Of a stretch of 44,876 nucleotides of DNA, positions 5,810-24,706 are shown piece by piece. The notes below the pieces were generated by a model. The model made no database searches. It saw only the letters and a list, made by a program, of their open reading frames with translations, and was not told the DNA's origin. This DNA comes from Deltaproteobacteria bacterium (GTDB lineage: Bacteria > Desulfobacterota > Binatia > DP-6): the NCBI GenBank assembly GCA_005879585.1, contig VBKG01000318.1, positions 1 through 44,876 on the forward strand, written 5' to 3'. The position numbers were made by a program, and so were the translations under genes. Each line of letters opens with the position of its first letter. Position 1 is the first letter of the stretch.

Positions 5810-6219
5810 GGCGACGCGAGGGATTCACGCTGCTCGAGGTCATGGTCGTCGTCTTCATCCTCGGCTTGCTCGCGACGATCGTCGCGCCGAAGATCATGGG
5901 CCGCACCGACGACGCCCGCCACACGAAGGCCGTCGCCGACATGAAGGGCATCGAGCAGGCGCTGAACCTCTACCGGCTCGACAACAGCGGCTACCCGACG
6001 ACCGACCAGGGACTCCAGGCGCTGGTGTCGCGGCCCGCAACATCGCCCGTGCCGCGCCAGTGGAATCCGAACGGCTACCTCGAACGCGTGCCGCTCGACC
6101 CGTGGGGCCGGCCGTACGTGTACCTGAGCGACGGCGCCCGCTTCACGCTCAAATCCTACGGCGCCGACGGCGTGGAAGGCGGCGAGGGCAAATTTGCCGA
6201 CATCGACAGCCGGGACTGA
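5806..6219 (+). CDS. gspG: Major pseudopilin GspG
   Basis: GspG is the main subunit of the type II secretion pseudopilus, processed by the prepilin peptidase and assembled in the inner membrane. The 137-residue product has a five-residue basic leader (MRRRE), the processing motif GFTLLEVMVVV with Glu at mature position 5, and one hydrophobic helix. The GspG-specific globular region follows: DNSGYPTTDQGLQALV, then PLDPWGRPYVYLS and a C-terminal Asp/Gly-rich loop near residues 115-125 that corresponds to the calcium site of the family. The start overlaps the gspF stop as ATGA. No prepilin peptidase gene is present in the window, so processing must rely on one encoded elsewhere. Confidence 0.97.
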   Translation: MRRREGFTLLEVMVVVFILGLLATIVAPKIMGRTDDARHTKAVADMKGIEQALNLYRLDNSGYPTTDQGLQALVSRPATSPVPRQWNPNGYLERVPLDPWGRPYVYLSDGARFTLKSYGADGVEGGEGKFADIDSRD

Positions 6220-6718
6220 GGCCGGACGCCGCCCTCGAGGCTTCACCCTCCTCGAGCTCGTGGTGGCGCTCGCCGTGATCGCGCTCAGTGCCGGCCTGGT
6301 ATTGCCGCGGCTCGACGACATCACCGGACGGCGGCTCGACGCCGCCGCTCGCCGTTTGGCGGACAGCCTCGCTTACGCACGCGACCGCGCGATCCTCGGC
6401 GGGCGGCCGATGCGGCTCGTCGTCGACCTCGATCGCGGGCGCTGGGAGCTCGGCACGCCGGCGCACGATGCAACGACCATCACGCCCGATGCCTCACCAC
6501 TCGGCCGCGCGAGCGTGCTGCCCGCCGGCCTCCGCATCGTCGCGGTGACCGCCGGCGGCGCGCCACCGGCGACCCGCGGCCTCGCCGCCCTCGACCTCGA
6601 GCCCGACGGCGACGCGTTTCCCGGCCGCATCGACCTCGACGATCGCTCGGGCCGCCGCGCGAGCGTCGTCGTGCCGGCCGCGGGAGGGCGGCCGTTCGTC
6701 CACGGGTCCGACGGATGA
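6194..6718 (+). CDS. gspH: Minor pseudopilin GspH
   Basis: GspH is a minor pseudopilin near the pseudopilus tip. The 174-residue product has the prepilin motif RGFTLLELVVALAVIAL with Glu5, a membrane helix to about residue 40, then a GspH-type globular domain (LADSLAYARDRAILGGRPMRL and a beta-rich tail). The start is probably the TTG at 6194, lying 26 bases inside gspG behind a GAGGG stretch; no ATG or GTG lies closer to the leader. The leader of about 16 residues is somewhat long but normal for minor pseudopilins. Its stop sits inside ATGA at 6715-6718, which is probably the old start of the next gene (see gspJ). Confidence 0.85.
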   Translation: MPTSTAGTEAGRRPRGFTLLELVVALAVIALSAGLVLPRLDDITGRRLDAAARRLADSLAYARDRAILGGRPMRLVVDLDRGRWELGTPAHDATTITPDASPLGRASVLPAGLRIVAVTAGGAPPATRGLAALDLEPDGDAFPGRIDLDDRSGRRASVVVPAAGGRPFVHGSDG

Positions 6719-6737
6719 CCTCGGCGCGGGCCGAAGC

Positions 6738-7190
6738 TTGCTCGTCCGTCTCGCCGCCGAGCTCGAAGCGGCCCGCCGCCCGGGTCCGGGCGAGCGCTTC
6801 GTCCTCGAACCGCCGGCCGACGGTGCGCCGCCGTGGTCGTCGCTCAGCTTCCCGACGGCGGCGCGCGGGCCGGCTGCGGGCTCGACGCCCGCGGGCGACA
6901 CGAGCGTCGTCTCGTACCGCGTGGACGCGGTTGCCGGACGGCCAGGCGTGGGCACGCTCGTGCGTCGTGAGGCCCTCGCACCGGTTCCGGCATCGGAGCC
7001 GCCCGCGGTTCCCATGCTCGCGGGAGTCCGCGCGCTCCGCATGCGCTGCCTCGACGGCGGCGGCTGGCATAGCGTCTGGCAGGGCGACGAGCTGCCGCGC
7101 GCCGTCGAGATCGCGATCGGTCAGGACGACGGCCATGGCGGCACGGAGGAGCTGACGACCGCGGTCGCGCTCCAGGCGGCGTCGCCGTAG
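6738..7190 (+). CDS. gspJ: GspJ-like minor pseudopilin lacking its N-terminus
   Basis: The body of this frame looks like the globular domain of GspJ, a minor pseudopilin: LVRLAAELEAAR, then TSVVSYRVDA, a LVRREAL strand, PMLAGVRALRMRCLDGGGW and PRAVEIAIG. The prepilin leader, Glu5 and hydrophobic helix that must precede this are absent. The only in-frame start is a TTG at 6738, at roughly residue 40-45 of a normal GspJ. An ATG at 6715 overlaps the gspH stop exactly as other starts in this operon do, but it reads in another frame and soon becomes non-coding. I infer that a deletion of a non-multiple of three removed the leader and helix. If the sequence is real, the product should not be processed or assembled. 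Confidence 0.62.
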   Translation: MLVRLAAELEAARRPGPGERFVLEPPADGAPPWSSLSFPTAARGPAAGSTPAGDTSVVSYRVDAVAGRPGVGTLVRREALAPVPASEPPAVPMLAGVRALRMRCLDGGGWHSVWQGDELPRAVEIAIGQDDGHGGTEELTTAVALQAASP

Positions 7191-7199
7191 CGGAAACCC

Positions 7200-8590
7200 A
7201 TGCGCATCCTCGCGATCGAGATCGGTGACGGCGAGCTCCGCGCGGCGCGCGCGCTGCGGACGTTCGGTTCGGCGCGGCTCGCCGGCGTCGAGCGGATCCC
7301 GTTCGCCGACGCGTCGGAGCTGCGCGCCGCGCTCGAGCGCCTCGCCGCGTGGCACCCGCAGGTAGTCGTCGCGCTCGCCCCCGCGGCGCTCGTGACGCAC
7401 CGGATCCTCACGCTTCCCTTCGGCAGTCGACGGCGGGTCGCGGCCACGCTGCCGCTCGAGCTCCTGGGCCAGCTGCCCGCCGCGCCGGAGGACCCAGTGA
7501 TCGCGTTCGAGCCGCTCGCCCACACCGAGGCCGGGACGGTCGTCCTGGCCGCGGCAGCACGGCGGGCGGACCTGGAAGCGTCGATCGAGCCGCTCGTCGC
7601 GGCGGGGCTCCCGCCGGCGCGCGTCGAGCTCGCGCCGATCGCCGTCTGGAGTCTGATGCCCGACGCCGCCGGTGACGCGGCAATCGTCGTCGCGGACGGC
7701 GAGCGGAGCGCGCTCTCGGTCCGGCGGGGCGGCCGGATCGTGGGGCTCCGTGCGCTCGGGACACCGGCCACCGAGCCGGTCGCTCTCGCCGCCGAGGTGC
7801 GCTGGGTGCTCGCCGCGCTCGGCGGCGCGCCGCCGACGATCGTCGCGACCGTGCGCTCGGGACACCGGCCACCGAGCCGGTCGCTCTCGCCGCCGAGGTG
7901 CGCTGGGTGCTCGCCGCGCTCGGCGGCGCGCCGCCGACGATCGTCGCGACCGGGGCCGACCGCGCACGCATCGCCGCGGCGCTCGACGCTCGACCGCTCG
8001 CCGATGTCGACGACGCGTGCGCCGCCGTGGCGGGTGCGGCGACCGGTGGGCGTCACGGCGTCGCATTCGACCTCGGCCTCCGGCCGTCGGGTACGTCGCT
8101 CCGCCGCGTGGCGGCGCTCGCTGCCGTCGCCGTGGTGCTCGCGTGCCTCGACCTCGGCCTCGCGCGCTACGATCTCGCGCGTCGCGACGTCGCGCTCGTC
8201 ACCGCGATCGAGCGCACGGCGGCCGAGGCGATGCCCGGCACCCGGTTGGTCGCGCCGCGCGCGCAGCTCGAGGCGGCCGTCGGCGGTGCGGTGCGGCAAC
8301 GGACGCGCCTCGGGGGTGGGACGACCGTGCTCGAGATCCTGCGCGAGGTCTCGACCCGCGTGCCGCCGAGCGTGAGCCTGGACCTCGACCAGCTCACGAT
8401 CGAGGGCGAACGGCTCGACCTCCGCGGGCACGCCGCGAGCTTCGACACGGTGGACGCGCTCCGCCGCGCCCTCGCGAGCGCACCGTTCCTGAGCGACGTG
8501 ACCGCCGACGAGACCCGCGCGACGGTCGACGGCCGCGGCGTCGAGTTCCGGCTGCATGCAGCGCGCCGCCCGAGCGGAGCGAGCTCGTGA
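7200..8590 (+). pseudogene. gspL: GspL, frameshifted by a 101-bp tandem duplication
   Basis: GspL is the inner-membrane assembly protein whose cytoplasmic domain recruits GspE. The first part (7200 to about 7850) encodes the actin-like cytoplasmic domain (MRILAIEIGDGELRAAR, then VVVALAPAALVTHRILTLPF). The second part, in another frame from about 7898 to 8590, encodes the rest of it, a membrane helix (VAALAAVAVVLACLDLGLA) and a periplasmic ferredoxin-like domain. The frames are separated by a perfect 101-bp tandem duplication. Removing one copy restores a single frame of 429 codons ending at the same stop, which overlaps gspM as GTGA. Without repair the frame reads into unrelated sequence to 8375 and lacks the membrane anchor. 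Confidence 0.85.
7748..7952 (+). repeat. Perfect 101-bp tandem duplication inside gspL
   Basis: Positions 7748-7851 and 7849-7952 are identical over 104 bases at an offset of 101. The 3-base overlap CCG is the microhomology at the junction. Flanking bases differ on both sides (T against A on the left, T against G on the right), so the boundaries are sharp. The unit length is not a multiple of three and therefore breaks gspL. Confidence 0.95.
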
Positions 8591-9102
8591 GCGACCGGGT
8601 GCTCGCGTGGCTCGGCGGGCGCTCGGCGCGCGAGCGACTCTTCCTCGTCGTCGCCGCCGCGACGGCGGTCGTGATCGGCCTCGCGCTCGGCGCGCTCGCG
8701 GTACGCGACGACCTCGCCGCCCTTCACCGCCGCGTCGCGGCGCACGAGCGGGATCTCGCCGTCGTCCGGGTTCTCGCCCAGCGGTTGACCGCCGGCCGCC
8801 CGGCGGGCGCCGCGTCAGACGACACGTCGCTGCTCGCCGAGGTGCAGCAAGCGGCCGAGGGGGTCGTCGGCCACGAGCGGCTCGCGAGCCTCACGCCGGC
8901 CGCGGGTCCGGTGGAGGACGGCCTCGCCGAGGACCGCGTCGCGCTCCGCCTGAGCGATGCGGCGTTACCGGAGCTGGTGGGTCTGCTGCACGCGCTCGAG
9001 AGCGCGGCGCACGTCGTCCGCCTGGACCTCCGCAAGCACCCGGACGATCCGGCACGCTTCGACGCCACGCTCGAGGTGGCGCGCCTGCGGGCGGCCTCGT
9101 GA
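8587..9102 (+). CDS. gspM: Type II secretion protein GspM
   Basis: GspM is a bitopic inner-membrane protein that pairs with GspL in the assembly platform. From the GTG at 8587, overlapping the gspL stop as GTGA, the product is 171 residues. It has a short cytoplasmic N-terminus containing RSARERLFLVVAAATAVVIG (one membrane helix, about residues 15-36), a coiled-coil-prone stretch (LAALHRRVAAHERDLAVVRVL) and a ferredoxin-like periplasmic domain (LPELVGLLHALESAAHVVRLDLRKHP). The sequence is divergent; the call rests on topology, length and position between gspL and gspN. Confidence 0.85.
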   Translation: MSDRVLAWLGGRSARERLFLVVAAATAVVIGLALGALAVRDDLAALHRRVAAHERDLAVVRVLAQRLTAGRPAGAASDDTSLLAEVQQAAEGVVGHERLASLTPAAGPVEDGLAEDRVALRLSDAALPELVGLLHALESAAHVVRLDLRKHPDDPARFDATLEVARLRAAS

Positions 9103-9941
9103 GACGGACGATTCTCGGCGGCGCGCCGATCGCGGCCGGTCTCGTCGCCCTCTTCCTCTTCCTCCTCTTCCCCATCGACACGGTCGTCCGCGCGCTGCTC
9201 GCGCGCGCCACGCCCGCCGGCTGGCCCGCGATCGTCTTCCAGCGAGCGGCGCTCCGTCCGACGGGTCTGCTACTGGAGGACGTGACGCTCCACGGCCGCG
9301 ACGGCGCCGCGCTCGTGGCCGCCGAACGGGTCTTCTTGCGTCCGTCGCTCCGCGGGCTCTGGCGCGACGGCACCGGGCTCCCGTGGCACGTCGAGGCGCT
9401 CGTCTGCGGCGGCACCGGCGTCGCGACGGTGACCGGCGACGGCGCGCCGGCGGCCCTCAGCTTCACGTGGCAGGACGTGGACCTCGGCGGCTGTCCGCCG
9501 CTCGCGCTCGCCGCCGGCGCGCTCGCCGGCCGCGCGACGATGACGGCGCGCGTCCGGCTCGGCCCGCCGGCCGGTGAGGGAACGGTCGAGGTGCACGCCG
9601 GCGAATGGCGGAGCAGCGCAGGACCGCTGGTCGCCGTCGGCACGCTGCACGCCGAGCGCGCCTCCTTCGGCTGGCGCCTCGTCGGCGACCGCGTGGCGCT
9701 CACCTCGTTCGAGCTCCACGGTCCCGACGTGTCGGCCGAGGGCGAGGGCACGGTGCGGCTCGCCGCACCGCTCGAGGCGAGCGGCCTCGAGCTGCGGCTG
9801 GCAGTCGCGGCGGCTCCGGAGGCACCGGACCGCGTGCGCGCGCTGCTCGGTCTGCTGCCGGCGCCCGCCGGTGACGCGGCCGGCCCGCGCCGGCTGTTCG
9901 TCGCCGGCACCGTCGCCAGCCCTCGGTTGCTCGCCCCGTGA
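9099..9941 (+). CDS. gspN: Type II secretion protein GspN
   Basis: GspN is an accessory type II secretion protein, anchored in the inner membrane with a mostly beta periplasmic domain. From the GTG at 9099, which overlaps the gspM stop as GTGA, the product is 280 residues. It has an N-terminal helix (GLVALFLFLLFPIDTVVRALL, about residues 13-35), then LRPTGLLLEDVTLHG and repeated beta segments that resemble AsmA-like bridge proteins, as reported for this family. It lacks any catalytic motif. Its place after gspM supports the call. The GspN family is present only in some type II systems, including many deltaproteobacterial ones. Confidence 0.8.
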   Translation: MRRTILGGAPIAAGLVALFLFLLFPIDTVVRALLARATPAGWPAIVFQRAALRPTGLLLEDVTLHGRDGAALVAAERVFLRPSLRGLWRDGTGLPWHVEALVCGGTGVATVTGDGAPAALSFTWQDVDLGGCPPLALAAGALAGRATMTARVRLGPPAGEGTVEVHAGEWRSSAGPLVAVGTLHAERASFGWRLVGDRVALTSFELHGPDVSAEGEGTVRLAAPLEASGLELRLAVAAAPEAPDRVRALLGLLPAPAGDAAGPRRLFVAGTVASPRLLAP

Positions 9942-9960
9942 GCGCGAGCGAAGGATATTG

Positions 9961-10314
9961 ATGAGCGCGCGACGGCCGCGCGGCATGACGCTCCTCGAGG
10001 TGGTGGTAGCGCTCTTCGTGCTGGCCGTCGGGGTGACCGCACTCCAGCGTCTGCTCGCGGCCAGCGTGCACGGCATCGCCACCGACGTGCGCCTGACCGA
10101 GGCGACGTTGCTCGCCCGGGGTCTCCTCGCCGACGCCGAGGTGCACCCGCCCGACCCGGGACACGTCGAGGGCGACCGGCCCCGCGCGCTGCACTACACG
10201 CGCGACACGACGTCCACCGCCCATCCGGCGCTGCGCGAGGTTCGCGTGCGCGTGTCCTGGGAGCCGGCAGAGGCCTGCGAGCTCGTGGAGATGGTTCGTG
10301 TCCCGGCGCCGTGA
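9961..10314 (+). CDS. gspI: Minor pseudopilin GspI
   Basis: GspI is a minor pseudopilin of the tip complex with GspJ and GspK. The 117-residue product begins MSARRPRGMTLLEVVVALFV: a basic leader, then the processing site G/MTLLE with Glu5 and a membrane helix, followed by a small globular domain ending VRVRVSWEPAEACELVEMVRV, typical of GspI. A clear ribosome binding site AAGGA lies at 9951-9955, five bases before the ATG. The gene sits after gspN instead of next to gspH/gspJ, so the tip-complex genes are split by gspL-M-N. It overlaps gspK by 17 bases. Confidence 0.88.
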   Translation: MSARRPRGMTLLEVVVALFVLAVGVTALQRLLAASVHGIATDVRLTEATLLARGLLADAEVHPPDPGHVEGDRPRALHYTRDTTSTAHPALREVRVRVSWEPAEACELVEMVRVPAP

Positions 10315-11194
10315 ACGCGGCGTCGCGCTGCTCGGCGCCGTCGTCGGCCTCGCGGTCCTCGGCATCGTGACGCTCGGCCTCGCGCACACTGCCGCGGTCG
10401 ACCAGCACCTCGCGCGGAACGCGCTCGCGGCGCTCCAGGCCGACGCCCTCGCGCGCTCGGGGGTCGCGGCGGCGGCGGTGTTCCTCACCGAGCGCGATCC
10501 CGACGCCGTCGACTGGGCGCGTGCACCCTGGGCGGAGGGCTCGGGACGCCAGCCGCTCGGCGCGGGCACGGTCGAGGTGATGGTCGAGGACGAGGCGCGC
10601 CGTCTCGCGCTCGGCGTCCCCGAGCTCGCCGATCGGCTGCCGCGGCTCCTCGCCGTCCTCGGTCTCGACGCCGCGCTCGCCGACGCGCTGGCCGACTGGA
10701 CGGATGCGGACGACACCCCGCGTCCGCTCGGCGCCGAGCGTGCGTACTATCTCGGTCTCACCCCGCCGTACGCACCCCGGAACGCGCCGCTCGGGAGCGT
10801 CGGCGAGCTCGCCCTCGTGCGCGGCTTCACGCGACCGGTCGTCGAGCGCCTGCGACCGTACGTCACCGTCGCGCCGGAGGCTCGCGTGAACCCGAACACC
10901 GCGTCGCGCGAGGTGCTGCTCGCCGTCGTCGACGACGCGGCGGCCGTCGAGCGGCTGCTCGCCGCCCGCGCGCGGGCCGCGATCGACCCCGAGAAGGACC
11001 TTCCGGCCATCCTGCCCGGCGCCACACCCGACGCGATCGACGCGCTCCGCGCGCGGCTGACCGCGCGCGGCACCTCCTACACCGTGCGCGCCGTCTCCGC
11101 GGTCGGCGACCTCACACGTGCCGCCGAGGCGACGTTGTTCGCGCCCCCGGGCGTCGCCGCCGAAGTCACCGCCTGGCGTCCGTTCCGCCCGTAG
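10298..11194 (+). CDS. gspK: Minor pseudopilin GspK
   Basis: GspK caps the pseudopilus tip. The 298-residue product from the GTG at 10298 has a short basic leader (SRRRERG), the hydrophobic segment VALLGAVVGLAVLGIVTLGL with Gly instead of Glu at mature position 5 (characteristic of GspK), and the large alpha domain inserted in a pseudopilin fold. It includes LADALADWTDADDTPRPLGA, then YYLGLTPPYAPRNAPLGSVG and the helix-hairpin-like VNPNTASREVLLAV. Length matches the family. It is the last gene of the operon. The next gene starts only 8 bases later but encodes an unrelated transporter. Confidence 0.93.
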   Translation: MSRRRERGVALLGAVVGLAVLGIVTLGLAHTAAVDQHLARNALAALQADALARSGVAAAAVFLTERDPDAVDWARAPWAEGSGRQPLGAGTVEVMVEDEARRLALGVPELADRLPRLLAVLGLDAALADALADWTDADDTPRPLGAERAYYLGLTPPYAPRNAPLGSVGELALVRGFTRPVVERLRPYVTVAPEARVNPNTASREVLLAVVDDAAAVERLLAARARAAIDPEKDLPAILPGATPDAIDALRARLTARGTSYTVRAVSAVGDLTRAAEATLFAPPGVAAEVTAWRPFRP

Positions 11195-12464: not shown

Positions 12465-13511
12465 TCAATGGCGATGCCGGTGGTGAACGTCCGAGACGTG
12501 CGGGTGAGCGTGTTCTGCGGGAACGTGCCGATGAAGATGAGCGTGGGGTTCGAGAACGGGCTCCGGGTGCTCGTGCTGATGATGCTCGTCGTGGAAGTGC
12601 GCGTGCTCGTGCTCGAGCGCCTCGTGTACGTGCCGATGGCCGTGCGTCTCGGTCACGAGGAGGAAGACGCCGAGCACCATGAGGCCCGCGGCTACCGCAT
12701 GGGACGGACCCAAGCGCTCACCTAGCAGTGGAACCGCCAGAACGGCGCCGACGAACGGTGCCGTCGTAAAGAATGCAGCTTGCCGCGCGGCCCCGAGAAT
12801 TCGCATCGCACGGACCGCGAGAACGATGCTGAACCCGTAGCTGACAAATCCGACTGCGAGAGCAGCCAAGACGACGGCCAGCGCCGGGAGCATCGATCCC
12901 GTGGCGAGCGCGAGCCCGAGCATGAACGTACCTGCGACGAGGCCCTTCGTCCGCGCAATCGCAACTGGGTCGCGCACCGATAATCGCTGCGTCAGGTTGT
13001 TGTCGACTGCCCAACCGAGGCAGGCGAATACGACGGCAGCGGCGCCACGCCAGTCCCCATGCACGTCGTCCGGCGCGTACGTCAGGGTGGCGGCACCGAG
13101 GGCGGTCAGAACGGCGCCGGCGGCGGCGCGACGGCCGAGGTGCTCGCGGAACAACATGACGGCGAGGAGAATCGTGAGCGGGGTCTCGAGGTTCAGGAGG
13201 AGCGAGCCGACGACGGCCGAAACACGCGCGAGACCGAACAGCATGAATACCGGGGCGGCGACTCCGCCCGTGGCGATGACGAAGAAGAGAAGCAGGAAGT
13301 CGACGCCGCGGAGTCGCGCCTCGCGCGGCGCCGCGTGCGGAGCCTCCCGAGCCGCGACCAATGTCGCCGCGGCGAGCCCGAGACCGGCACCGAGGTACAG
13401 CAACGCGGCGAGCAGGAGCGGGCCCGTCGCCGGGAGCAAGAGCTTGGAGACTGGAGCGCTCAGGCCGAACAGGACGGCGGCCGCGAGAGCGGACGAAATG
13501 CCGGCCGACAT
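12465..13511 (-). CDS. EamA/DMT-family transporter with histidine-rich C-terminus
   Basis: This is a drug/metabolite-family permease with ten predicted helices in two EamA halves: LNLETPLTILLAVMLFREHLG and AAFFTTAPFVGAVLAVPLLGERLG are the paired signatures ending in the conserved Glu. I prefer the ATG at 13511 (MSAGISSALAAAVLFG) to an in-frame ATG at 13532, because helix 1 begins at once. After the last helix comes a tail of about 60 residues with 23 histidines, in strings such as HEHAHFHDEHHQHEH and HAHLHRHVP. Such tails bind divalent metals in known metal transporters and chaperones, which suggests a nickel, cobalt or zinc connection, but the substrate is unproven. Codon use is slightly less GC-biased than in neighbours. 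Confidence 0.85.
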   Translation of the reverse strand: MSAGISSALAAAVLFGLSAPVSKLLLPATGPLLLAALLYLGAGLGLAAATLVAAREAPHAAPREARLRGVDFLLLFFVIATGGVAAPVFMLFGLARVSAVVGSLLLNLETPLTILLAVMLFREHLGRRAAAGAVLTALGAATLTYAPDDVHGDWRGAAAVVFACLGWAVDNNLTQRLSVRDPVAIARTKGLVAGTFMLGLALATGSMLPALAVVLAALAVGFVSYGFSIVLAVRAMRILGAARQAAFFTTAPFVGAVLAVPLLGERLGPSHAVAAGLMVLGVFLLVTETHGHRHVHEALEHEHAHFHDEHHQHEHPEPVLEPHAHLHRHVPAEHAHPHVSDVHHRHRH

Positions 13512-13550
13512 GGGAGGCGGCGCCCTGCCCACCTCGCGGACGGCCGACTG

Positions 13551-14801
13551 CTACGCCCCGATCCGCGCGCGGATCTGCCGCAGCAACGCGGCGTTGTCGG
13601 AGTGACCGGTCATGCGCGCGGTGACACGACCACGAACCGGGCGGCCGAGCAGGTAGAAGTCGCCGAAGATGTCGAGGATCTTGTGGCGTACGAACTCGTC
13701 GGAGAAGCGTAGTGGCGCGTTCACCACGCCGTCGGGGCCGACCAGGATGCAGTTGTTCAGGCGGCCGCCGCTCGCGAGCCCCATCTGCTCGAGGGTCTCG
13801 ATCTCCTTGACGAAGCCGAAGGTACGGGCCGGGGCGATCTCACGCCGGAAGGCGTCGACGCCGGTGAAGCGGAACTCGTACGCCTGCCGGCCGATCGGCG
13901 GCGGATAGTCGAGCGTGTAGTGCACCTCGAACGCGTCGGCCGGCTCGATCATGATGCCCTTCTCGGTGCCCGACTCCGCGCCGAGCGCGTACGTGCGGTC
14001 GATGACCAGCTCCTCGACCGTCGCCGGCTGCTCGACGACGCCGCCCTCCTCGAGCAGCGCGCAGAGCTCGAGCGCCGAGCCGTCGAGGATCGGCACCTCG
14101 CCCTGCATCTTCACGAGCATGTTCGTGATGCCGTAGGCATGCAGCGTCGCCATCAGGTGCTCGACCGTCTTCGCCACCATACCGCCGCGGGCGAGGGTGG
14201 TCGCGTAGTCGGTCGAATCCACGTGGTCGATGACCGCGGGAACCGTCTCGCCCGACGAGATGCTGCCGAAGAGAATGCCGCTGCCGGGCGGCAGCGGCTG
14301 GAGGATGAGCCCCGTGCGAACGCCCGTGTGGAGCCCCTGCCCGTTCACGACGACGCCGCGCGCGATGGTCCGCTGTGGCAGCACGCGCGCCGGGGCGACG
14401 GCCGCCGGCGCCGTCGTGCCGTCGCGGTCGACCGAGACGTTGCCGTCGAGCGCGCGACCCACCACCTGGAGCAGCGCGTCGAGCTGGAAGGGCTTCTCGA
14501 GGAAGTCGCACGCGCCGAGGCGAATCACGCGCATCGCCGTCTCGATCGTGCCGTGGCCCGAGATGACGATGATCGGCAACCGCGGCGCGCGGGACCGCAT
14601 GCGCTCGACGAGCTCGATTCCGTCGACCTCCGGCATCCACACGTCGACGATCGCCAGGCGGGGCTCGACGTGCTGGAGCAGCTCGAGCGCGCGGCGGCCG
14701 TCGGCAGCCTCGACGACGTCGAACCCCTCGTCGGAGAGGACGCCGCGCAACGTGCAGCGGATCTTCTCCTCGTCGTCCACCACCAGGATCGTCTCAGGCA
14801 T
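13551..14801 (-). CDS. lpxC: Response-regulator receiver domain fused to LpxC deacetylase
   Basis: The 416-residue protein has two complete domains. Residues 1-118 are a receiver domain: acidic pair D9/D10, phospho-acceptor D53 (IVDVWMPEVDG), S81 and K103 (FLEKPFQ). A linker of about 25 residues rich in Ala/Pro/Thr follows. Residues 143-416 are LpxC, the zinc deacetylase of UDP-3-O-acyl-GlcNAc and committed step of lipid A synthesis. They carry HVDSTDYATTL, catalytic E214 with zinc ligand H215 (KTVEHLMATL), zinc ligands H373 and D377 (RHKILDIFGDF) and general acid H400 (GHSDNAALL). All key residues of both domains are present. The start has AGAGGA five bases upstream. The gene lies 14 bases after a histidine kinase gene, in the place where a DNA-binding NtrX-type regulator would be expected. 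Confidence 0.95.
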   Translation of the reverse strand: MPETILVVDDEEKIRCTLRGVLSDEGFDVVEAADGRRALELLQHVEPRLAIVDVWMPEVDGIELVERMRSRAPRLPIIVISGHGTIETAMRVIRLGACDFLEKPFQLDALLQVVGRALDGNVSVDRDGTTAPAAVAPARVLPQRTIARGVVVNGQGLHTGVRTGLILQPLPPGSGILFGSISSGETVPAVIDHVDSTDYATTLARGGMVAKTVEHLMATLHAYGITNMLVKMQGEVPILDGSALELCALLEEGGVVEQPATVEELVIDRTYALGAESGTEKGIMIEPADAFEVHYTLDYPPPIGRQAYEFRFTGVDAFRREIAPARTFGFVKEIETLEQMGLASGGRLNNCILVGPDGVVNAPLRFSDEFVRHKILDIFGDFYLLGRPVRGRVTARMTGHSDNAALLRQIRARIGA

Positions 14802-14815
14802 CGGTCCTCTCTTCC

Positions 14816-17143
14816 TCAGGCGCCGTAGGCGCCGAGCCGGGCGCGGGCGGCGAGCTGGCTCGGCTGCTGCCGCACGGGGAACTCCATGATGAAGCGGCTG
14901 CCGCGCGGCAGGTTGTCGCGCGCCCGGATGAAGCCGTTGTGATCAGCGACGATCGCCGACACGATGGCGAGCCCGAGGCCCGTGCCGTCGGGCTTGGTGG
15001 AAAAGTAGGGCTCGAAGAGCCGGGCCTTCACCTCGGCCGTCATGCCGTCGCCGTTGTCGGCGATCTCGAGCCGCACGATGCCGAGCCGCGAGACGTCGGT
15101 GGTCTTGAGCTCGACGCGGCCGCGCTCGCCGGGCGCGACCTGCCGCCGCGCCGCGCACGCCGCCACGGCATTGTGGAGGATGTTGATGACCGCGCGCTTC
15201 ACGCCCTCGCGATCGAGCTCAAGCTCGGGGAGGTCGGGCTCCGGGACGAAGACGAAGTCGATCTCGCGGTGGCCTTCGCGGAAGAGGACGAGTGCCTCCT
15301 CGACGACCGCGTTGAGGTCCTGCGGCGTGTGCTGGCCGGCCGGCATCCGGGCGAAGGTGGAGAACTCGTTCACGAGCGCCTTCAGCTCCTCCACCTGCTG
15401 GATGATCGTGCGGGTGCACTCGTCGAACACGGTGCCGCCGTCGTGGAGCTGGCCGGCGTAGCGGCGGCGGAGCCGCTGGGCGGAGAGCTGGATGGGCGTC
15501 AGGGGGTTCTTGATCTCGTGGGCAATGCGCCGCGCCACCTCGCGCCACGCTTCCATGCGTTGGACGCGGAGGAGGTGCGTCACTTCCTCGAGGAAGACTA
15601 CGAGGCCCTGCGGGCTGCCGGTATCGTCGAGCAGCCGGGTGCCGGTGAGGAGCAGCGCCACGTCGTGACCGTCGCGCTGGAGCCGCATCTGCCGCTCGAC
15701 GGTGGCCGCGCCTCCGGATGGGCCGTCGAGGCGCGCCGGTGGCCCGAACGTGATCGCGTACGGCGGCCCGTCGTTGCCGTTGTTCGCGAGCAGGCTCGCG
15801 CTCAGCTGGCGGATCTCGGCATAGGGCTCGCCGGCGAGCACCTCGTCGAGCGGCCGCCAGATGCACGCGGCGGCGCGCACGTCGAGGAGCGTCTCGGCGG
15901 CGCGGTTGAGCGTCGTGATGCGGCCCTCGGCATCGGTCGAGATGACGCCGGCGGTGATGTTGGCGAGCAGGATCTCGAGGTAGCGGCGGCGGGAGTCGAG
16001 CTCGGTGCGACTGGTCTTCAGCTCCGCGGTCATGCGGTTGAACGCGGAGACGAGCGTGCCGATCTCGTCGTGCCCCTCACCCGGGATGCGCTGGTCGAGG
16101 TCGCCCTGCGCGACGGCGCGCGTCCCTTCGACCAGCCGCTGGATGGGCACCGTGATGCGGCGAGCGATGTAGAAGCCGACCCAGGTGGCCGCGAACAGCA
16201 CGACCACCGTGGCGAGGCCGAGCGTGATCGTGTACGCGGTCTTGATCGGCTGCCGCTGCACCTTCAAGCGAACGTACTCGTCGAACGCACGGCTGATGTC
16301 CTCGCGGCGCTTCGCGACGCTGTTCGGGACGTAGGTGTCGACCACGACGACCGCCACCGGGCGGTCGTCCACCACGACGGGAGCGGCGGCACGGATCATG
16401 TCCGCCTCGCCGACGGTGTCCACGACCGTGGCTTCCGGTCCTTGTGCCACGCGACGCACGAGGTCCGACCACGGCGCGAGCCCGATGCCCGTGGGCAGCT
16501 CGCCGCGCCGGCTGCGCGCGATCGCCTGGCCGTGCGCGAACACCTCGACGACGTCGAGCTGGTATTCGGCGCGGCGCTGATCGAGGAACCGCTTGAGCGC
16601 CTCGCGCCGCTCGGGCGCCAGCAGGCCTTCGGCGCGCAGCCGTCCGGCAAGGCCGCGCGCGAACCCGAGCGCGGTCTCGCCGAGTCCGCGGTAGTACGTC
16701 TGCGCGACCTCCCGCGAGCCGGCGAGCGAGTTCTCCACCTGCTCGTTGAACCACCGCTCGATCGAGTTGCCGACGAACACCAGCGCCACGAGGAAGAGCA
16801 GCGTCGCGGGCAGCAACGCGACCCCGACGAACGCGCCGACGAGGCGGGTGCGCAGGTGCGCGCCGATGATGCGGCGCCGGCGCTCGAAGATCAGCTTCAC
16901 GATGTTCCGGCCGACCAGGAACACGAGCAGGATCAGCAGGATCAGGTTCAGGTTGATGAGCACGACGAGCACCGCATTGGTGCCCACGGAGCCCGTGCCG
17001 GGGGACTGCGGGAGATGGAACTCGAAGACGGCGAAGAGCACGACCGCCACCGCGGTCGCGATGATGATCAACCCTTCCAGACGGCGCCGGCGAGACTCGG
17101 GCGCGGCCGCCTGCGCAGGCGGCGAGTCGGACGGGCCGGGCAT
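14816..17143 (-). CDS. NtrY-like membrane sensor histidine kinase
   Basis: This is a 775-residue kinase with the NtrY layout. Three N-terminal helices (about residues 23-40, 56-78 and 101-124) precede an extracytoplasmic sensor region (about 125-305), a fourth helix (TLGLATVVVLFAATWVGFYI) and a HAMP domain (RRITVPIQRLVEG...DEIGTLVSAFN). A PAS domain follows (ILLANITAGVISTDAEGRI). The phospho-acceptor H-box is RRIAHEIKNPLTPIQLSAQR with H542, then a HATPase domain with N box NILHNAVAAC, G1 DNGDGM, F box FEPYFSTK and G2 GTGLGLAIV. The ATG at 17143 (MPGPSDSPP) is chosen because upstream codons look non-coding. It is co-directional with and immediately upstream of the receiver-LpxC gene, its likely partner. 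Confidence 0.94.
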   Translation of the reverse strand: MPGPSDSPPAQAAAPESRRRRLEGLIIIATAVAVVLFAVFEFHLPQSPGTGSVGTNAVLVVLINLNLILLILLVFLVGRNIVKLIFERRRRIIGAHLRTRLVGAFVGVALLPATLLFLVALVFVGNSIERWFNEQVENSLAGSREVAQTYYRGLGETALGFARGLAGRLRAEGLLAPERREALKRFLDQRRAEYQLDVVEVFAHGQAIARSRRGELPTGIGLAPWSDLVRRVAQGPEATVVDTVGEADMIRAAAPVVVDDRPVAVVVVDTYVPNSVAKRREDISRAFDEYVRLKVQRQPIKTAYTITLGLATVVVLFAATWVGFYIARRITVPIQRLVEGTRAVAQGDLDQRIPGEGHDEIGTLVSAFNRMTAELKTSRTELDSRRRYLEILLANITAGVISTDAEGRITTLNRAAETLLDVRAAACIWRPLDEVLAGEPYAEIRQLSASLLANNGNDGPPYAITFGPPARLDGPSGGAATVERQMRLQRDGHDVALLLTGTRLLDDTGSPQGLVVFLEEVTHLLRVQRMEAWREVARRIAHEIKNPLTPIQLSAQRLRRRYAGQLHDGGTVFDECTRTIIQQVEELKALVNEFSTFARMPAGQHTPQDLNAVVEEALVLFREGHREIDFVFVPEPDLPELELDREGVKRAVINILHNAVAACAARRQVAPGERGRVELKTTDVSRLGIVRLEIADNGDGMTAEVKARLFEPYFSTKPDGTGLGLAIVSAIVADHNGFIRARDNLPRGSRFIMEFPVRQQPSQLAARARLGAYGA

Positions 17144-17205
17144 GAGTTCGCGCGATGATAGGGACAAGGGAAGGCGAAGGCAAGACCGCCCCGCCGGGTC
17201 CAACA

Positions 17206-18305: not shown

Positions 18306-18320
18306 GCACCTCGCAGGTGC
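18306..18320 (+). terminator. Short perfect hairpin after the methyltransferase gene
   Basis: GCACCT-CGC-AGGTGC forms a six-base-pair stem with a three-base loop, 14 bases after the methyltransferase stop. It lacks a following T run (CTTATCC), so it may be a weak or Rho-assisted terminator or only an incidental palindrome. Confidence 0.3.
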
Positions 18321-18356
18321 CTTATCCGAACTCGCGGCGCCAGCTGCATCTTCCAC

Positions 18357-18385
18357 TTGACAACCGGAACATTCACCATGTTAAG
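18357..18385 (+). promoter_or_regulatory. Candidate sigma-70 type promoter for the giant secreted protein
   Basis: A perfect -35 hexamer TTGACA at 18357-18362 is followed at 16-17 bases by TGTTAAG, a poor -10 match. The surrounding DNA is noticeably less GC-rich than the coding regions. Two consecutive hairpins lie between it and the chosen start: CGCACA/TGTGCG (18447-18469) and CATGGG/CCCATG (18471-18489). Confidence 0.35.
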
Positions 18386-18520
18386 AGGCACGCGCTTCAC
18401 CGCGTTGATCGTATCGAAGAGTTTAGAAAGCACGGGAACACGGCGTCGCACATGCTCTACCGCTGTGCGTCATGGGGGACAGACCCATGGAGTCAGACGG
18501 TTTACGGCGGCGAGCGGAAG

Positions 18521-21500
18521 GTGCTGACGCGTTCGAGGGAGGCCCTCGCGAAGATCCCCGTCCTCGCCTCGATCGTCCTGGCGTTGACGATCGGGACGGC
18601 TCCCCGCGCCGTCGCCGCCGATTGCTCTCTCACGCCGATCGCGATCGGACAGTCGGCTCGAGGGCGGCTCACCGCGGGCGACTGCGTGTCGTCGGTGTTC
18701 AGAGCGGGCGGCACGCACTTCGCGGATCGCTGGAGCTTCGACGGGACCGTGGGTCAGCAGGTCGCCATCCTCATCAGTTCCGGCGACTACACCCCCTCCG
18801 TCGCGCTGATCCGCGCATCCGACGGCGTCACGCTCCAGTCGGTCAACGGCTCGGGGACCGCCGCTCGCCTGCCGGGGGGGGCGGGATTCTTCACGCTCTC
18901 GGCGACGGGCACCTACTTCATCGAGGTCTCGTCGACCAGCGTGCAGGACACGGGTGCCTACGCGGTGAGCCTGGCGGGTTCCGCCGTCGCCTTCCCGGCC
19001 GCGGGAGTGGTCAGGAGCGGCGGCATGGGCCTCGCCGGTGTCACCGTGACGTTCTCCGACGTGCTCGGCACGGGCGCCGTCCCGCCCCCGGTGCAAACCG
19101 ACTCATCGGGCGTGTGGTCCCAGACGGGGTTCGAAATCGGCACCACGTACCGGGCGACGCCCAGCCTCGGCAGCTTCATCTTCGCGCCCCCGTCGCGCGA
19201 CTTCACCACGACGCTCGAGCTCGACTTCACCGGTACCTTCATCGCGTGCAACACGTTCACCGGGGCGCCGATCGCGGTCGGGCAGGCGCCGATCCCGGGA
19301 GCACTCACCGTCGGCGATTGCGTGTCTCCCGTGTTCACGTCCGGCGGAGCGCACTTCGCCGACCGGTACACCTTCGACGGCACCGGCGGCCAGCAGGTGG
19401 TCATCCTCGCGACGTCGGGAGACTTCACCCCCGCGGTGACACTGGCTCGCGCCAGTGACGGCCAGACGCTGGCGTCCGTTTCCGGCTCCGGCACGTCGGC
19501 ACGCCTGGGGTTCTTCACGTTGCCGAGCACGGGGACCTACGTGATCGAGGTCGCCTCGAGCGGGCCACTCCAGACCGGCGTCTACCACGTCGGCCTGGCG
19601 GATGCCGCCTCACCGTATTTCGTCTCCGGCATCGTGAGGAGCGGAGGAATGGGTCTCGGCGGGGTTATCATCACGTTCTCCCGCGTCCTCGGAACCGGCA
19701 GGATTCCCCCTCCGGTACGGACCGACGACTCGGGGTTCTGGTCGGCGATGGGGTTCGACGTCGGGACCACGTACCGCGCGACACCCGCCCTCGGCACCTT
19801 CATCTTCGAGCCGCCGTCCCGTGACTTCACGGCGACCGGCGAGCTCGATTTCACCGCGACCTTCGTCGGCTGCGACACCTTCACCGCCGTGCCGATCGCC
19901 ATCGGCCAGAGCGTCCCCGGCGACCTCTCGGTGAGCGACTGCGTCTCGCCGGTCTTCGGCAGCGGCGGCGGGCACTTCGCCGATCGCTACGCCTTCGACG
20001 GCACCGAGGGCCAGCAGGTTGCCGTCCTGGCGACCTCGGGCGACTTCACACCGGCGATCGCGCTGATCCGTGTGAGCGACCGGCAGATCGTACACTCCGT
20101 GTCGGGCTCCGGCACCTCGGCACGCCTTCCCGCGTCGAGCTTCTTCACGCTGCCGAGCACGGGTGCGTACGTGATCGAGGTATCCTCCACGTCGTCGCTG
20201 AAGACCGGCGCGTACCACGTCGCGCTGGCGGACGCACCGGACCCGTACCCGGTGCAGGGGATCGTGACGGGCGGCGGAATGAGGCTCGCCGGCGTCACGA
20301 TGACCTTCTCGCTCGTCCTCGGGTCGGGCCCCGTGCCGCCGCCCGTGCAGACGGACGTGGACGGCTCCTGGTCGCAGACGGGGTTCGGCGTCGGGGCGAC
20401 GTACCGCGTGACGCCGAGCCTCGGCACGTTCGCCTTCGCGCCGCCGTCGCGCGACTTCACGACGATGACGGAGCTCGACTTCACCGGCACCTTCGTCGCC
20501 TGCAGCATGCCGGGGGGCCTCCCGATCACCTTCGGTCAGGTGCTCCAGGGCGCACTCACCGCCGGCGACTGCGTCTCCACCGTCTTCACGGGGGGCGGCG
20601 AGCACTTCGCGGACCGCTACACGTTCAGCGGCACGCAGGGCCAGCAGGTGATTATCCTGGCCACCTCCGGGGATTTCGCGCCGGCGATCACGCTGATCGA
20701 GGGGAGCGACGCGCGGACCCTGACGTTCGCCGTCGGCTCCGGCACCTCGGCCCGCGTGCCCCCGTCGAGCCCGAACGTCACGCTGCCCAGCACCGGCACC
20801 TACGTCATCGAGATCGCCTCCGCGTCGGCCCTGGACACGGGCGGCTACCGCGTCGGTCTGGCGGACGCGGCCGGTCCCTCGTTCCCCGCGGCGGGAGTCG
20901 TAAAGATCGGCGGAGGACCGCTCCCCGGTGTCACGATGACCTTCTCGCGCGTCGTCGGCACGGGCGCGCTGCCGCCGCCGGTCCAGACGGATGCGTCCGG
21001 CTTGTGGACCCAGAGCGGCTTCGAGACGGGCACCACGTATCGCGTGACACCGAGCCTCGGACCGCTCACCTTCACCCCCGCGTCGCGCGACTTCCCCGAC
21101 ATCGCGGAGCTGGACTTCACCGCGGCCACGAGCGCCGCGGCATGCCCGCCATTCGCAATCCCGATCTCGCCGGGGCAGACGATGACCGGCGAGCTGACGC
21201 TCGACGACTGCGCCGGGGTTCCGAGCTTCGGCGCCAACCGCTTCACCGACGATTACTCTTTCACCGGCACCGCCGGCCAGCAGGTCGCAGTCCTCGTCAC
21301 GTCGAACGCGTTCACGCCAGCGGTCGCCATGATCCGGGCATCGACGGGAACCGTGCAGCTGTTGACGTTCGGAAGCGGCACGTCCGCTCGTCTCCTGTCG
21401 GGAACGGCGTTCTTCACCCTCCCGGCGACCGACACGTACATCATCGAGGTCACCTCGGCCTCGGTGAACCGGATCGGGCGGTATGTCGTGAGCCTGGCCG

Positions 21501-24500
21501 ACGCCAACACGACGGTCCGGTTCCCTGTCGCGGGCGTGGTGACGGCAGGCGGCATGGGGCTCGGCGGCGCCATGATCACGTTCTCCCGCGTGCTCGGCTC
21601 CGGTGCGCTGCCGTCTCCCGTAAAGACGAATGACTCGGGTGTCTGGTTCCAGACCGGCTTCGAGCCCGGCACCACGTATACCGCCACGGCGACTCTCGGC
21701 ACGTACGCCTTCAACCCGCCCTCCCGTGACTTCACGACGACCCTGGAGCTCGACTTCGCCGCGACGTTCATCGAGTGCAATGCCCTCGCGCCGTTGGCGA
21801 TCGCGCCTGGCCAGACGGAGCGCGGCACGCTCACGACGGGCGACTGCACGTCGCCGGTGTTCGGTACCAACCACTTCGCCGATCGTTATTCGTTCACCGG
21901 CACGGGTGGGCAGCAGGTGGCGATCCTGGTCACGTCGCGGGAGTTCACGCCAGCGGTCGCGCTCATCTGCAACAACCAGGTGCTGTCGCAGCCGTTCGGG
22001 TCCGGGACGTCGGTCCGGCTGCCCGCGTCCGGATTCTTGACGTTGACGAACAGCGGCCCCTGCATGATCGAGGTGTCGTCGAACGCCATCTTCGACACCG
22101 GTGGGTACACCGTCAGCCTCGCGGACGCGCCGAACCCCTATCCGGTCGCCGGCATCGTCACGAGCATGGGCACGCCGCTCGCGGGCGTCACCATGACGTT
22201 CTCCCGCGTGCTCGGCCAGGGGGCACTGCCGTCGCCGGTGCAGACCGACGCCGGAGGATTCTGGTCGCAGAACGGCTTCCAGCCCGGGACGACGTACCGC
22301 GTCACGCCGAGCCTTCCCACGTACACGTTCAATCCGCCGTCGCGCGACTTCACCACTCCCGCAGAGCTCGACTTCGCGGCGACGTTCATCGAATGCAGCG
22401 GGCTGTCACCATTTCCCATCTCGCCGGGACAGACGGTCGCCGGCAGCCTCGCGACGGGCGGCTGCACGTCGCCGGTGTTCGGCAGCAACCGCTTCGCCGA
22501 TCGGTACTCCTTCAGCGGGACGGGCGGCGAGCAGGTGACGATGCTCGTGACGTCCCGGAAGTTCACCCCCGCCGTCGCGCTCATCTGTAATGATCAGGTG
22601 CTGTCGCAGCCGTTCGGGTCCGGAACATCCGTCCGCCTGCCGAGCTCCGGCTTCTTCATGCTGCCGAACACCGGGCCGTGCCTGGTCGAGGTGTCGTCGA
22701 ACGGCACGTTCGATACCGGCGACTACGACGTGAGCTTCGCCGACGCCTCGTTGCCGTATCCCGTCGCCGGCATCCTGACGGCCACCGGCGCGCCGCTGCC
22801 GGGCGTCACGGTGACGTTCTCGCGTGTGCTGGGTACGGGAGCGCTGCCGGCGCCGGTGCAGACCGATGCCATGGGGTTCTGGTCGCAGACGGGCTTCGTG
22901 CCAGGGACCACGTACCGCGTCACGCCGAGCCTCGGCACGTACACGTTCACACCGCCGTCGCGTGACTTCACGACGATCGGCGAGCTCGACTTCACGGCGA
23001 CGTTCGTCGAGTGCAACGTCCTCGCACCGGTACCGATCGCGCCCGGGCAGACCGTCGGCGGCGCGCTCACGACCGACGACTGCACGTCGCCCGTGTTCGG
23101 CAGCAACCGGTTCGCGGACCGCTATTCCTTCGATGGCACGCAGGGGCAGCAGGTGGCGATCCTCGTCAACTCCACCGAGGTCACCCCCGCGGTGGCGCTC
23201 GTCTGCAACAACCAGGTGTTGTCGCAGCCGTTCGGGTCCGGGACGTCGGTACGCCTGCCGGCTGTCGGGTTCCTCACGTTGCCGGCCACCGGCCCGTGCC
23301 TGATCGAGGTGTCGTCGAGCGCCACGTTCGACACCGGTGCGTATCACCTGAGCCTTGCCTACGCGTCCCTGCCGTATCCCGTCGCCGGCATCGTCACCGG
23401 CCTCGGCATGGGCCTTCCCGGCGTCACGATGACCTTCGACTGCGTAGGTGGCAGTGGGGTGGTGCCGCTTCCCGTACAGACGGATGGGGGCGGGTTCTGG
23501 GCCCAGACCGGGTTCGAGGTCGGCCCGACGTGCACCGTGACGCCGAGCCTGGCGGGCTTCACCTTCACGCCCGTCTCGCGCACCTTCACCACCCTCACCG
23601 CCCTCAACTTCAGCGGCCTGTTCTCCGGCGTCACCATGACGACCACCACGACCACAACGACCACGACGACCACGACGACGGGGCCATGCACCGTGAACCT
23701 CGGCATCGGGGACGGAGTGAGTCCGCCGTCGACGGAGTTCTGCGTCGACCTGAACCTGACGAACGGCCGGGCAATTCGGGCGGTTCAGACAGCGGTGATC
23801 GACGTGCCCGATGAGTTCCAGCTCTCGCGCTGCCAGTGCGCGTCGCGCACCGCCGCGTTCTCGTGTCAGTGCAATGAAATCCCGGCCACCAATCGCATCA
23901 ACGTCGTTATCCTCGATGCCGGGGGCGGCTGCATCGCCTCCGGAAGCGGGCCGATCGCGCGCATCTGCCTGACCGACCGCGCGCCGTTGTGCCCGCTCAG
24001 CAACAGCGTTCAGCTGAACATCGACCCCAGCCCCGTCGTTGCGGACTGCAGCAACAACCAGCCGTGCGACGTCTCGCGGTCGAGCGGAGCCGTCCGGTGT
24101 TGTGGCAGTGGACTGCTCGGCGACTGCAACGGCGACGGCCACCTCGACCTCCTCGACATCCTCACCAAGATCGACATCGTGCTCGGCCGCGTGACGCCGA
24201 CGCCGGCGCAGGTGTGCATCTGTGACGACACCTGCGACTCGAGAATCGACGTTTTCGACGTTCTCCGGGAGATCGACGCGCTGCTCGGCCGCATCCCGAC
24301 GCCGCTCGCCTGCCCGACGCCCACGCCATCGGTCACCGCGCAAGTGCTGCCCGCAGGAGCGCACGGCGCGGGAACGTCGGAGCCTACATCCCACGCCGCT
24401 TCGGCGAAGCGTCGCGGGAGTGCCATCCTTTTGCAGAATCGGGACGAAGCCGTACGAGGTCTCGAGCTGACGCTATCGCCGGTGCATGGTCCGGTAGACA

Positions 24501-24706
24501 TCCTCGGCGTGCGGTCCACGCGGCGAACGCGACGCTTCATGACGGCATTCCACCAGGCCTCGGCGACGGCACCGGCGAAGATCCTGGTGCTGTCGCTCCG
24601 AGGCGAAGCCATTCAGCCGGGTCATGGCCCCGTCGTGAGGGTGCAGACGCGACACGACGCCGGCCACGGACATTGGAAGGTCACCGAAGCACGGATCGTC
24701 AAATAG
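18521..24706 (+). CDS. Giant secreted protein: eight tandem units, cohesin-like and dockerin-like domains
   Basis: The product is about 2061 residues from the GTG at 18521. A Sec signal peptide is clear (VLTRSREALAKIPVLAS, cleavage near AVA-AD). Residues ~34-1705 are eight tandem units. Each has a pre-peptidase C-terminal-like beta domain (FADRYSFTGTGGQQVAILV ... Y.V.LAD) joined to a carboxypeptidase-regulatory/Cna-B-like domain (GVTMTFSRVLGTGALPPPVQ ... PPSRDFTT.ELDFTATF). A Thr-only linker follows (14 Thr). Then come a Cys-rich cohesin-like domain (~1722-1857), a dockerin-like pair (GDCNGDGHLDLLDILTKID and CDSRIDVFDVLREIDALLGR) and a C-terminal domain again resembling cohesin. No enzyme motif was seen. 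I infer a surface or extracellular adhesive or scaffold role. An upstream in-frame ATG at 18452 lies in predicted leader hairpins and was not chosen. Confidence 0.85.
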   Translation: MLTRSREALAKIPVLASIVLALTIGTAPRAVAADCSLTPIAIGQSARGRLTAGDCVSSVFRAGGTHFADRWSFDGTVGQQVAILISSGDYTPSVALIRASDGVTLQSVNGSGTAARLPGGAGFFTLSATGTYFIEVSSTSVQDTGAYAVSLAGSAVAFPAAGVVRSGGMGLAGVTVTFSDVLGTGAVPPPVQTDSSGVWSQTGFEIGTTYRATPSLGSFIFAPPSRDFTTTLELDFTGTFIACNTFTGAPIAVGQAPIPGALTVGDCVSPVFTSGGAHFADRYTFDGTGGQQVVILATSGDFTPAVTLARASDGQTLASVSGSGTSARLGFFTLPSTGTYVIEVASSGPLQTGVYHVGLADAASPYFVSGIVRSGGMGLGGVIITFSRVLGTGRIPPPVRTDDSGFWSAMGFDVGTTYRATPALGTFIFEPPSRDFTATGELDFTATFVGCDTFTAVPIAIGQSVPGDLSVSDCVSPVFGSGGGHFADRYAFDGTEGQQVAVLATSGDFTPAIALIRVSDRQIVHSVSGSGTSARLPASSFFTLPSTGAYVIEVSSTSSLKTGAYHVALADAPDPYPVQGIVTGGGMRLAGVTMTFSLVLGSGPVPPPVQTDVDGSWSQTGFGVGATYRVTPSLGTFAFAPPSRDFTTMTELDFTGTFVACSMPGGLPITFGQVLQGALTAGDCVSTVFTGGGEHFADRYTFSGTQGQQVIILATSGDFAPAITLIEGSDARTLTFAVGSGTSARVPPSSPNVTLPSTGTYVIEIASASALDTGGYRVGLADAAGPSFPAAGVVKIGGGPLPGVTMTFSRVVGTGALPPPVQTDASGLWTQSGFETGTTYRVTPSLGPLTFTPASRDFPDIAELDFTAATSAAACPPFAIPISPGQTMTGELTLDDCAGVPSFGANRFTDDYSFTGTAGQQVAVLVTSNAFTPAVAMIRASTGTVQLLTFGSGTSARLLSGTAFFTLPATDTYIIEVTSASVNRIGRYVVSLADANTTVRFPVAGVVTAGGMGLGGAMITFSRVLGSGALPSPVKTNDSGVWFQTGFEPGTTYTATATLGTYAFNPPSRDFTTTLELDFAATFIECNALAPLAIAPGQTERGTLTTGDCTSPVFGTNHFADRYSFTGTGGQQVAILVTSREFTPAVALICNNQVLSQPFGSGTSVRLPASGFLTLTNSGPCMIEVSSNAIFDTGGYTVSLADAPNPYPVAGIVTSMGTPLAGVTMTFSRVLGQGALPSPVQTDAGGFWSQNGFQPGTTYRVTPSLPTYTFNPPSRDFTTPAELDFAATFIECSGLSPFPISPGQTVAGSLATGGCTSPVFGSNRFADRYSFSGTGGEQVTMLVTSRKFTPAVALICNDQVLSQPFGSGTSVRLPSSGFFMLPNTGPCLVEVSSNGTFDTGDYDVSFADASLPYPVAGILTATGAPLPGVTVTFSRVLGTGALPAPVQTDAMGFWSQTGFVPGTTYRVTPSLGTYTFTPPSRDFTTIGELDFTATFVECNVLAPVPIAPGQTVGGALTTDDCTSPVFGSNRFADRYSFDGTQGQQVAILVNSTEVTPAVALVCNNQVLSQPFGSGTSVRLPAVGFLTLPATGPCLIEVSSSATFDTGAYHLSLAYASLPYPVAGIVTGLGMGLPGVTMTFDCVGGSGVVPLPVQTDGGGFWAQTGFEVGPTCTVTPSLAGFTFTPVSRTFTTLTALNFSGLFSGVTMTTTTTTTTTTTTTTGPCTVNLGIGDGVSPPSTEFCVDLNLTNGRAIRAVQTAVIDVPDEFQLSRCQCASRTAAFSCQCNEIPATNRINVVILDAGGGCIASGSGPIARICLTDRAPLCPLSNSVQLNIDPSPVVADCSNNQPCDVSRSSGAVRCCGSGLLGDCNGDGHLDLLDILTKIDIVLGRVTPTPAQVCICDDTCDSRIDVFDVLREIDALLGRIPTPLACPTPTPSVTAQVLPAGAHGAGTSEPTSHAASAKRRGSAILLQNRDEAVRGLELTLSPVHGPVDILGVRSTRRTRRFMTAFHQASATAPAKILVLSLRGEAIQPGHGPVVRVQTRHDAGHGHWKVTEARIVK
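18620..23635 (+). repeat. Eight tandem ~0.62-kb repeats within the giant gene
   Basis: Units begin near 18622, 19252, 19871, 20503, 21140, 21778, 22393 and 23014, spaced 615-638 bases. They are diverged, not identical, so the array is old. Units 6-8 are most alike and form a subfamily in which two positions are both Cys (ALICNN/ALVCNN and GPC.IEV) where units 1-5 have other residues, except that unit 5 has Arg and Thr as in 1-4. Confidence 0.88.

Follow-up and report, generated by a model that had tools for sequence, protein, structure and literature searches.

The window analysed here (the whole stretch of 44,876 nt, contig VBKG01000318.1, from a genome of the class Binatia) carries on its minus strand, at positions 13551–14801, an open reading frame encoding a 416-aa protein composed of a receiver domain and an LpxC deacetylase. 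The original prediction had recognized this frame, which proved to be a real ORF with an ATG start codon, although its strand had to be corrected to minus. Pfam searches detected the receiver (Response_reg, PF00072; 104.7 bits, E 3.8e-30) at residues 5–114 (positions 14460–14789, minus) and LpxC (PF03331; 268.9 bits against a cut-off of 27, E 6.8e-80) at residues 143–410 (13572–14375, minus), which confirmed that two complete domains share one frame. The LpxC equivalog model of NCBIfam, TIGR00325, was also matched above its cut-off (232.2 versus 187.25 bits).

The functionally important residues had been named correctly. Across 31 homologues of the class, D9, D10, D53 and K103 of the receiver were invariant and S81 nearly so, and the full zinc and catalytic set (zinc ligands H215, H373 and D377; catalytic residues E214 and H400) was invariant. 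Judging from its conservation in the fused homologues, D53 (codon at 14643–14645, minus) is the predicted phospho-acceptor. When all distinct fused proteins were considered, D10 and D53 were present in 70 of 71 short forms and in 14 of 14 long forms (described below), K103 was found in every short and long protein, and the phospho-pocket was intact in 84 of 85; the five LpxC residues showed no variation among 71 short, 15 long and 65 unfused proteins. The phospho-pocket and the zinc residues are co-conserved over homologues sharing 48–92% identity, and within the class the zinc ligands are no more strictly kept than the acidic pocket, D53 and K103. The LpxC domain ends in a short C-terminal tail (mostly 14–21 residues after H400 in the class). 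On these sequence criteria, family and residues make the product an LpxC, and its receiver makes it a response regulator.

The two domains are separated by a linker (residues 119–139, positions 14385–14447, minus), delimited by column statistics and pLDDT, which is poorly conserved and varies from 21 to 35 aa across the class. An AlphaFold2 model of the fusion had a mean pLDDT of 90.8, and comparison with solved LpxC structures gave target-normalised TM values of about 0.82–0.94 (0.84–0.94 for those of P. aeruginosa and A. aeolicus). Both domains are well predicted, but their mutual arrangement is not predicted with confidence, since pTM was 0.72 and the linker pLDDT fell below 50 at residues 121–126.

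The predicted partner of the fusion, a 775-aa sensor histidine kinase of the NtrY type, is encoded at 14816–17143 on the same strand, with 14 nt between its stop codon and the start of the fusion gene downstream. Pfam models identified NtrY_N (31.4 bits, cut-off 23.2), HAMP, PAS, HisKA and HATPase_c domains. The N-terminal part is predicted to form long helices and a domain most similar to extracytoplasmic PAS/Cache sensors, with modest fold matches to CitA, DctB and WalK (pLDDT 82). This kinase is the only NtrY_N match of its genome, as is the corresponding protein in nine class genomes. In all 31 class loci compared, an NtrY-type kinase gene was located immediately upstream of the fused gene, and the receiver adjoining NtrY was always the one carried by LpxC; where the kinase lies directly upstream, the two genes are separated by −26 to 148 nt. 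Promoter and terminator scans produced a weak match before the kinase gene (17155–17183) and nothing reliable between the kinase and the fusion.

In the class comparison, no operon conservation was found beyond the kinase and the fusion themselves. The upstream genes ruvC–ruvA–ruvB and yebC, common to many class genomes, are housekeeping genes. Between the kinase gene and ruvB (24785–25813, minus) lies an ORF of 2129 aa (18317–24706, plus) with repeated modules, a run of threonines and a stretch resembling a dockerin (GDCNGDGHLDLLDILTKID); this ORF looks inserted, because the ruv genes are placed close upstream of the kinase in many relatives of the class. On the other side, a gene for an EamA-type transporter (12465–13532, minus) begins 18 nt past the end of the fusion. 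Its product has a very histidine-rich C-terminal tail (HGHRHVHEALEHEHAHFHDEHHQHEH...), perhaps metal-binding, and the gene is not generally retained beside the fusion in the class. ORFs at 7200–11194 (plus) resemble type II secretion genes (GspL/PilM-like and GspK-like, as judged by eye from the translation).

Copy number and distribution of the fusion

A second, stand-alone lpxC, which the original prediction had proposed looking for, is absent from the source genome (99.2% complete), in which the fusion is the only PF03331 match. Exactly one LpxC was likewise encoded in 55 of 58 relatives. Since the source genome also retains LpxB and has no other LpxC, the fusion is predicted to be an active deacetylase.

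Mapping of the architecture revealed that it is class-wide in these uncultured bacteria. The model of the fused protein matched in 140 of 148 class genomes; seven of these matches were partial, apparently at contig ends, which leaves about 133 full-length fusions. One of the 148 genomes encodes an additional stand-alone LpxC. In the eight genomes without a match to the fused model there may be either an assembly gap or a true loss of LpxC; LpxB was kept in all six of them that were searched.

Beyond the class, REC–LpxC proteins were detected in about 41 of some 285 genomes of the phylum sample, and 14 contained longer frames that end in LpxC (11 of the 14 were read). The carriers include Acidobacteriota (Thermoanaerobaculales, Holophagae, Terriglobia), Nitrospirota (a Thermodesulfovibrionia), Nitrospinota, Desulfomonile and Desulfopila. 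Two genomes, G258 (locus L159) and G300 (L158), possess a stand-alone lpxC plus a long-branched REC–LpxC paralogue, and in G258 NtrY adjoins the stand-alone gene.

Outside the class, NtrY is absent from the neighbourhood of several fused genes. Four genomes in which the fused gene lacks an adjacent kinase (G058, G064, G067 and G156) each encode exactly one NtrY_N protein elsewhere, and no receiver gene was found in the few kb read around it. This fits, without proving it, the LpxC-borne receiver being the partner of these orphan kinases.

Relationship of the fusion to NtrX

The best response-regulator match of the fusion was NtrX (NF051870), with 126.9 bits against a cut-off of 600, and it covered the receiver only. 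All 65 fused receivers scored best against an NtrX, and in a tree of receivers (based on few columns) the fused and NtrX domains together formed one side of a branch separating them from NtrC-type receivers (SH-aLRT 99). Because the AAA+ and HTH domains are absent from the 416-aa protein, it is classed as NtrX-like in its receiver but not as an NtrX.

The long forms consist of a receiver, a sigma-54-type AAA+ domain, an AAA lid and, in some cases, a degenerate Fis-like HTH (judged by eye from the alignment), followed by LpxC. The GAFTGA motif, which is required for contact with sigma-54, was missing in 15 of 15 of these proteins, and for this reason they are unlikely to activate transcription. 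At locus L145 (genome G158, positions 5818–8061) a long form is present in two frames (7711–8061 and 5818–7707), split between the receiver and the AAA domain, which reflects a frameshift or a sequencing error.

In a tree of 99 LpxC domains a single branch divided the fused from the unfused proteins (SH-aLRT 100), with the long forms interspersed among the short ones and with no bare LpxC inside the fused clade among the sampled members. This split fits a single origin of the fused LpxCs. As the tree is unrooted and its unfused set was picked by similarity, we base the direction of change on domain make-up. An unfused lpxC–ntrY–ntrX row occurs in Acidobacteriota, deltaproteobacterial, Rokubacterial, Magnetococcales and Desulfobacteraceae genomes, and an NtrY-like kinase was encoded near lpxC in 15 of 66 unfused loci.

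Taken together, the NtrX-like receivers, the long forms and the unfused rows suggest that an NtrX encoded near lpxC was probably joined to LpxC and then shed its DNA-related parts. The steps would have run from an lpxC–ntrY–ntrX neighbourhood, through an NtrX–LpxC protein with a decayed sigma-54 module, to the loss of AAA+ and HTH. We infer this order; what is observed is the fusion, its single copy, the kinase gene beside it and a receiver resembling that of NtrX. The series of NtrX beside lpxC, NtrX–LpxC without the sigma-54 contact motif, and REC–LpxC has the look of a regulator of transcription turning into the regulatory domain of an enzyme.

Proposed control of LpxC and alternative explanations

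LpxC catalyses the committed step of lipid A synthesis, of which it is the control point, and is also a drug target; it is known to be controlled through proteolysis and transcription. We consider it likely that the fusion is a response regulator of NtrX descent with LpxC as its output, and that it pairs with the NtrY-type kinase encoded beside it in a two-component system which acts on an enzyme instead of DNA and is switched via D53. If so, a two-component signal, and not gene expression, probably exerts direct control over outer-membrane synthesis throughout the class. The kinase would sense an envelope signal through its Cache/PAS-like extracytoplasmic domain and, judging from the intact receiver pocket and from the pairing of the two genes, would phosphorylate D53; the phosphorylated receiver would then alter the amount of active LpxC in the cell. 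The likeliest routes are dimerisation of the receiver, its docking on LpxC, or its docking on a turnover factor of the LapB/FtsH type. The variable and probably flexible linker hints at dimerisation or docking in preference to a rigid allosteric lever. The sign of the effect could be either; our guess is that phosphorylation lowers lipid A synthesis, because NtrYX represses lpxC in alphaproteobacteria.

The receiver may instead govern how stable LpxC is or where it is located, for example through LapB/FtsH turnover or membrane recruitment, and not its catalysis, replacing the C-terminal degron. We regard this as a real, if tentative, possibility, and it is a sub-form of the proposed two-component switch, because LpxC would still be controlled by the kinase. 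It agrees with the short tail past H400 and with the variable linker, which speaks against a rigid lever, and the source genome, like four of five other class genomes tested, encodes a LapB-type Zn ribbon. A Zn ribbon alone is, however, no proof of LapB, and some LpxC lineages, betaproteobacteria among them, also lack a C-terminal degron, with no receiver reported in the betaproteobacterial enzyme (PMC12444477). Given the Zn ribbon, LapB-linked control of LpxC may act as well as, or instead of, the phosphorylation switch.

It is also conceivable that the real output of the kinase is another regulator, and that the LpxC receiver does no more than compete for phosphate or position LpxC at the membrane. 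These genomes encode many NtrC-type regulators, so NtrY could target one of them too. Nevertheless, no NtrX above the curated cut-off was found in nine class genomes (the model may be biased towards alphaproteobacteria), and the invariable position of the LpxC-borne receiver beside NtrY in the 31 loci also makes a phosphate sink or localiser improbable. That the receiver is a non-signalling relic or structural appendage left from the NtrX fusion seems very improbable: the loss of AAA+ and HTH indicates that the NtrX part does decay, and the linker is poorly conserved, but conservation of the pocket, D53 and K103 as strict as that of the zinc ligands is not expected of a relic, no sampled member of the fused clade consists of LpxC alone, and the partner kinase is retained, as the only NtrY. 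Finally, an assembly join or a wrongly predicted frame uniting two genes, the objection foreseen in the original prediction, can be dismissed along with chance, since the same in-frame fusion recurs in about 133 independent class genomes and in other phyla, single-contig genomes (e.g. G022) included.

Comparison with known systems and biological meaning

The fusion shares with LpxC (UDP-3-O-acyl-N-acetylglucosamine deacetylase) the full catalytic domain, its zinc and catalytic residues, the fold and a TIGR00325 score above the cut-off, and differs in its N-terminal receiver, its short C-terminal tail and its placement in a separate LpxC clade. With NtrYX it has in common a kinase containing NtrY_N, HAMP, PAS, HisKA and HATPase domains and a receiver closest to NtrX; in contrast, AAA+ and HTH are lacking and the enzyme LpxC itself serves as the output. 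Response regulators with enzymatic outputs, i.e. a receiver and an enzyme in one chain, are already known (CheB, GGDEF, EAL, HD-GYP and PP2C). Their outputs are signalling enzymes, whereas the enzyme fused here belongs to biosynthesis, at the committed step of an essential pathway. In E. coli, LpxC is likewise the controlled point and a LapB-type Zn ribbon is present in our genome as well, but the known LapB/FtsH proteolysis scheme has no phosphorylation input on LpxC.

The nearest precedent for REC–LpxC is DVU2934 of Desulfovibrio vulgaris, a response regulator for which lpxC is the only target reported; in S. fumaroxidans the operon orthologous to that of DVU2934 is immediately preceded by lpxC (PMC3333781). 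DVU2934 acts at the lpxC promoter, whereas in the fusion the receiver is carried by LpxC. A link between NtrYX and lpxC has been described elsewhere: in an R. sphaeroides ntrYX mutant lpxC mRNA was 8.8-fold up and LPS was doubled, an effect that the authors call indirect (PMC7240162), and according to a review NtrYX inhibits lpxC transcription in R. sphaeroides and Caulobacter (PMC12444477).

No description of REC–LpxC was found in the open-access literature searched, which agrees with the earlier statement that no characterised example was known; in a 2025 review on lipid A regulation the words "receiver" and "fused" are both absent. As far as we could find, LpxC as the output of a response regulator is apparently undescribed.

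The occurrence of the lpxC–ntrY–ntrX row in several phyla indicates that the NtrYX–lpxC link may be old. We are inclined to think that control of the commitment to lipid A is an old task of NtrY/NtrX, and that one large lineage fused the regulator to its target enzyme and lost the DNA-related parts, leaving a kinase that would switch LpxC by phosphorylation. REC–LpxC may therefore bear on why NtrYX mutants elsewhere alter lpxC and LPS, and a receiver placed on the sole LpxC of a whole class provides a two-gene system in which direct, reversible kinase control of outer-membrane synthesis could be tested.
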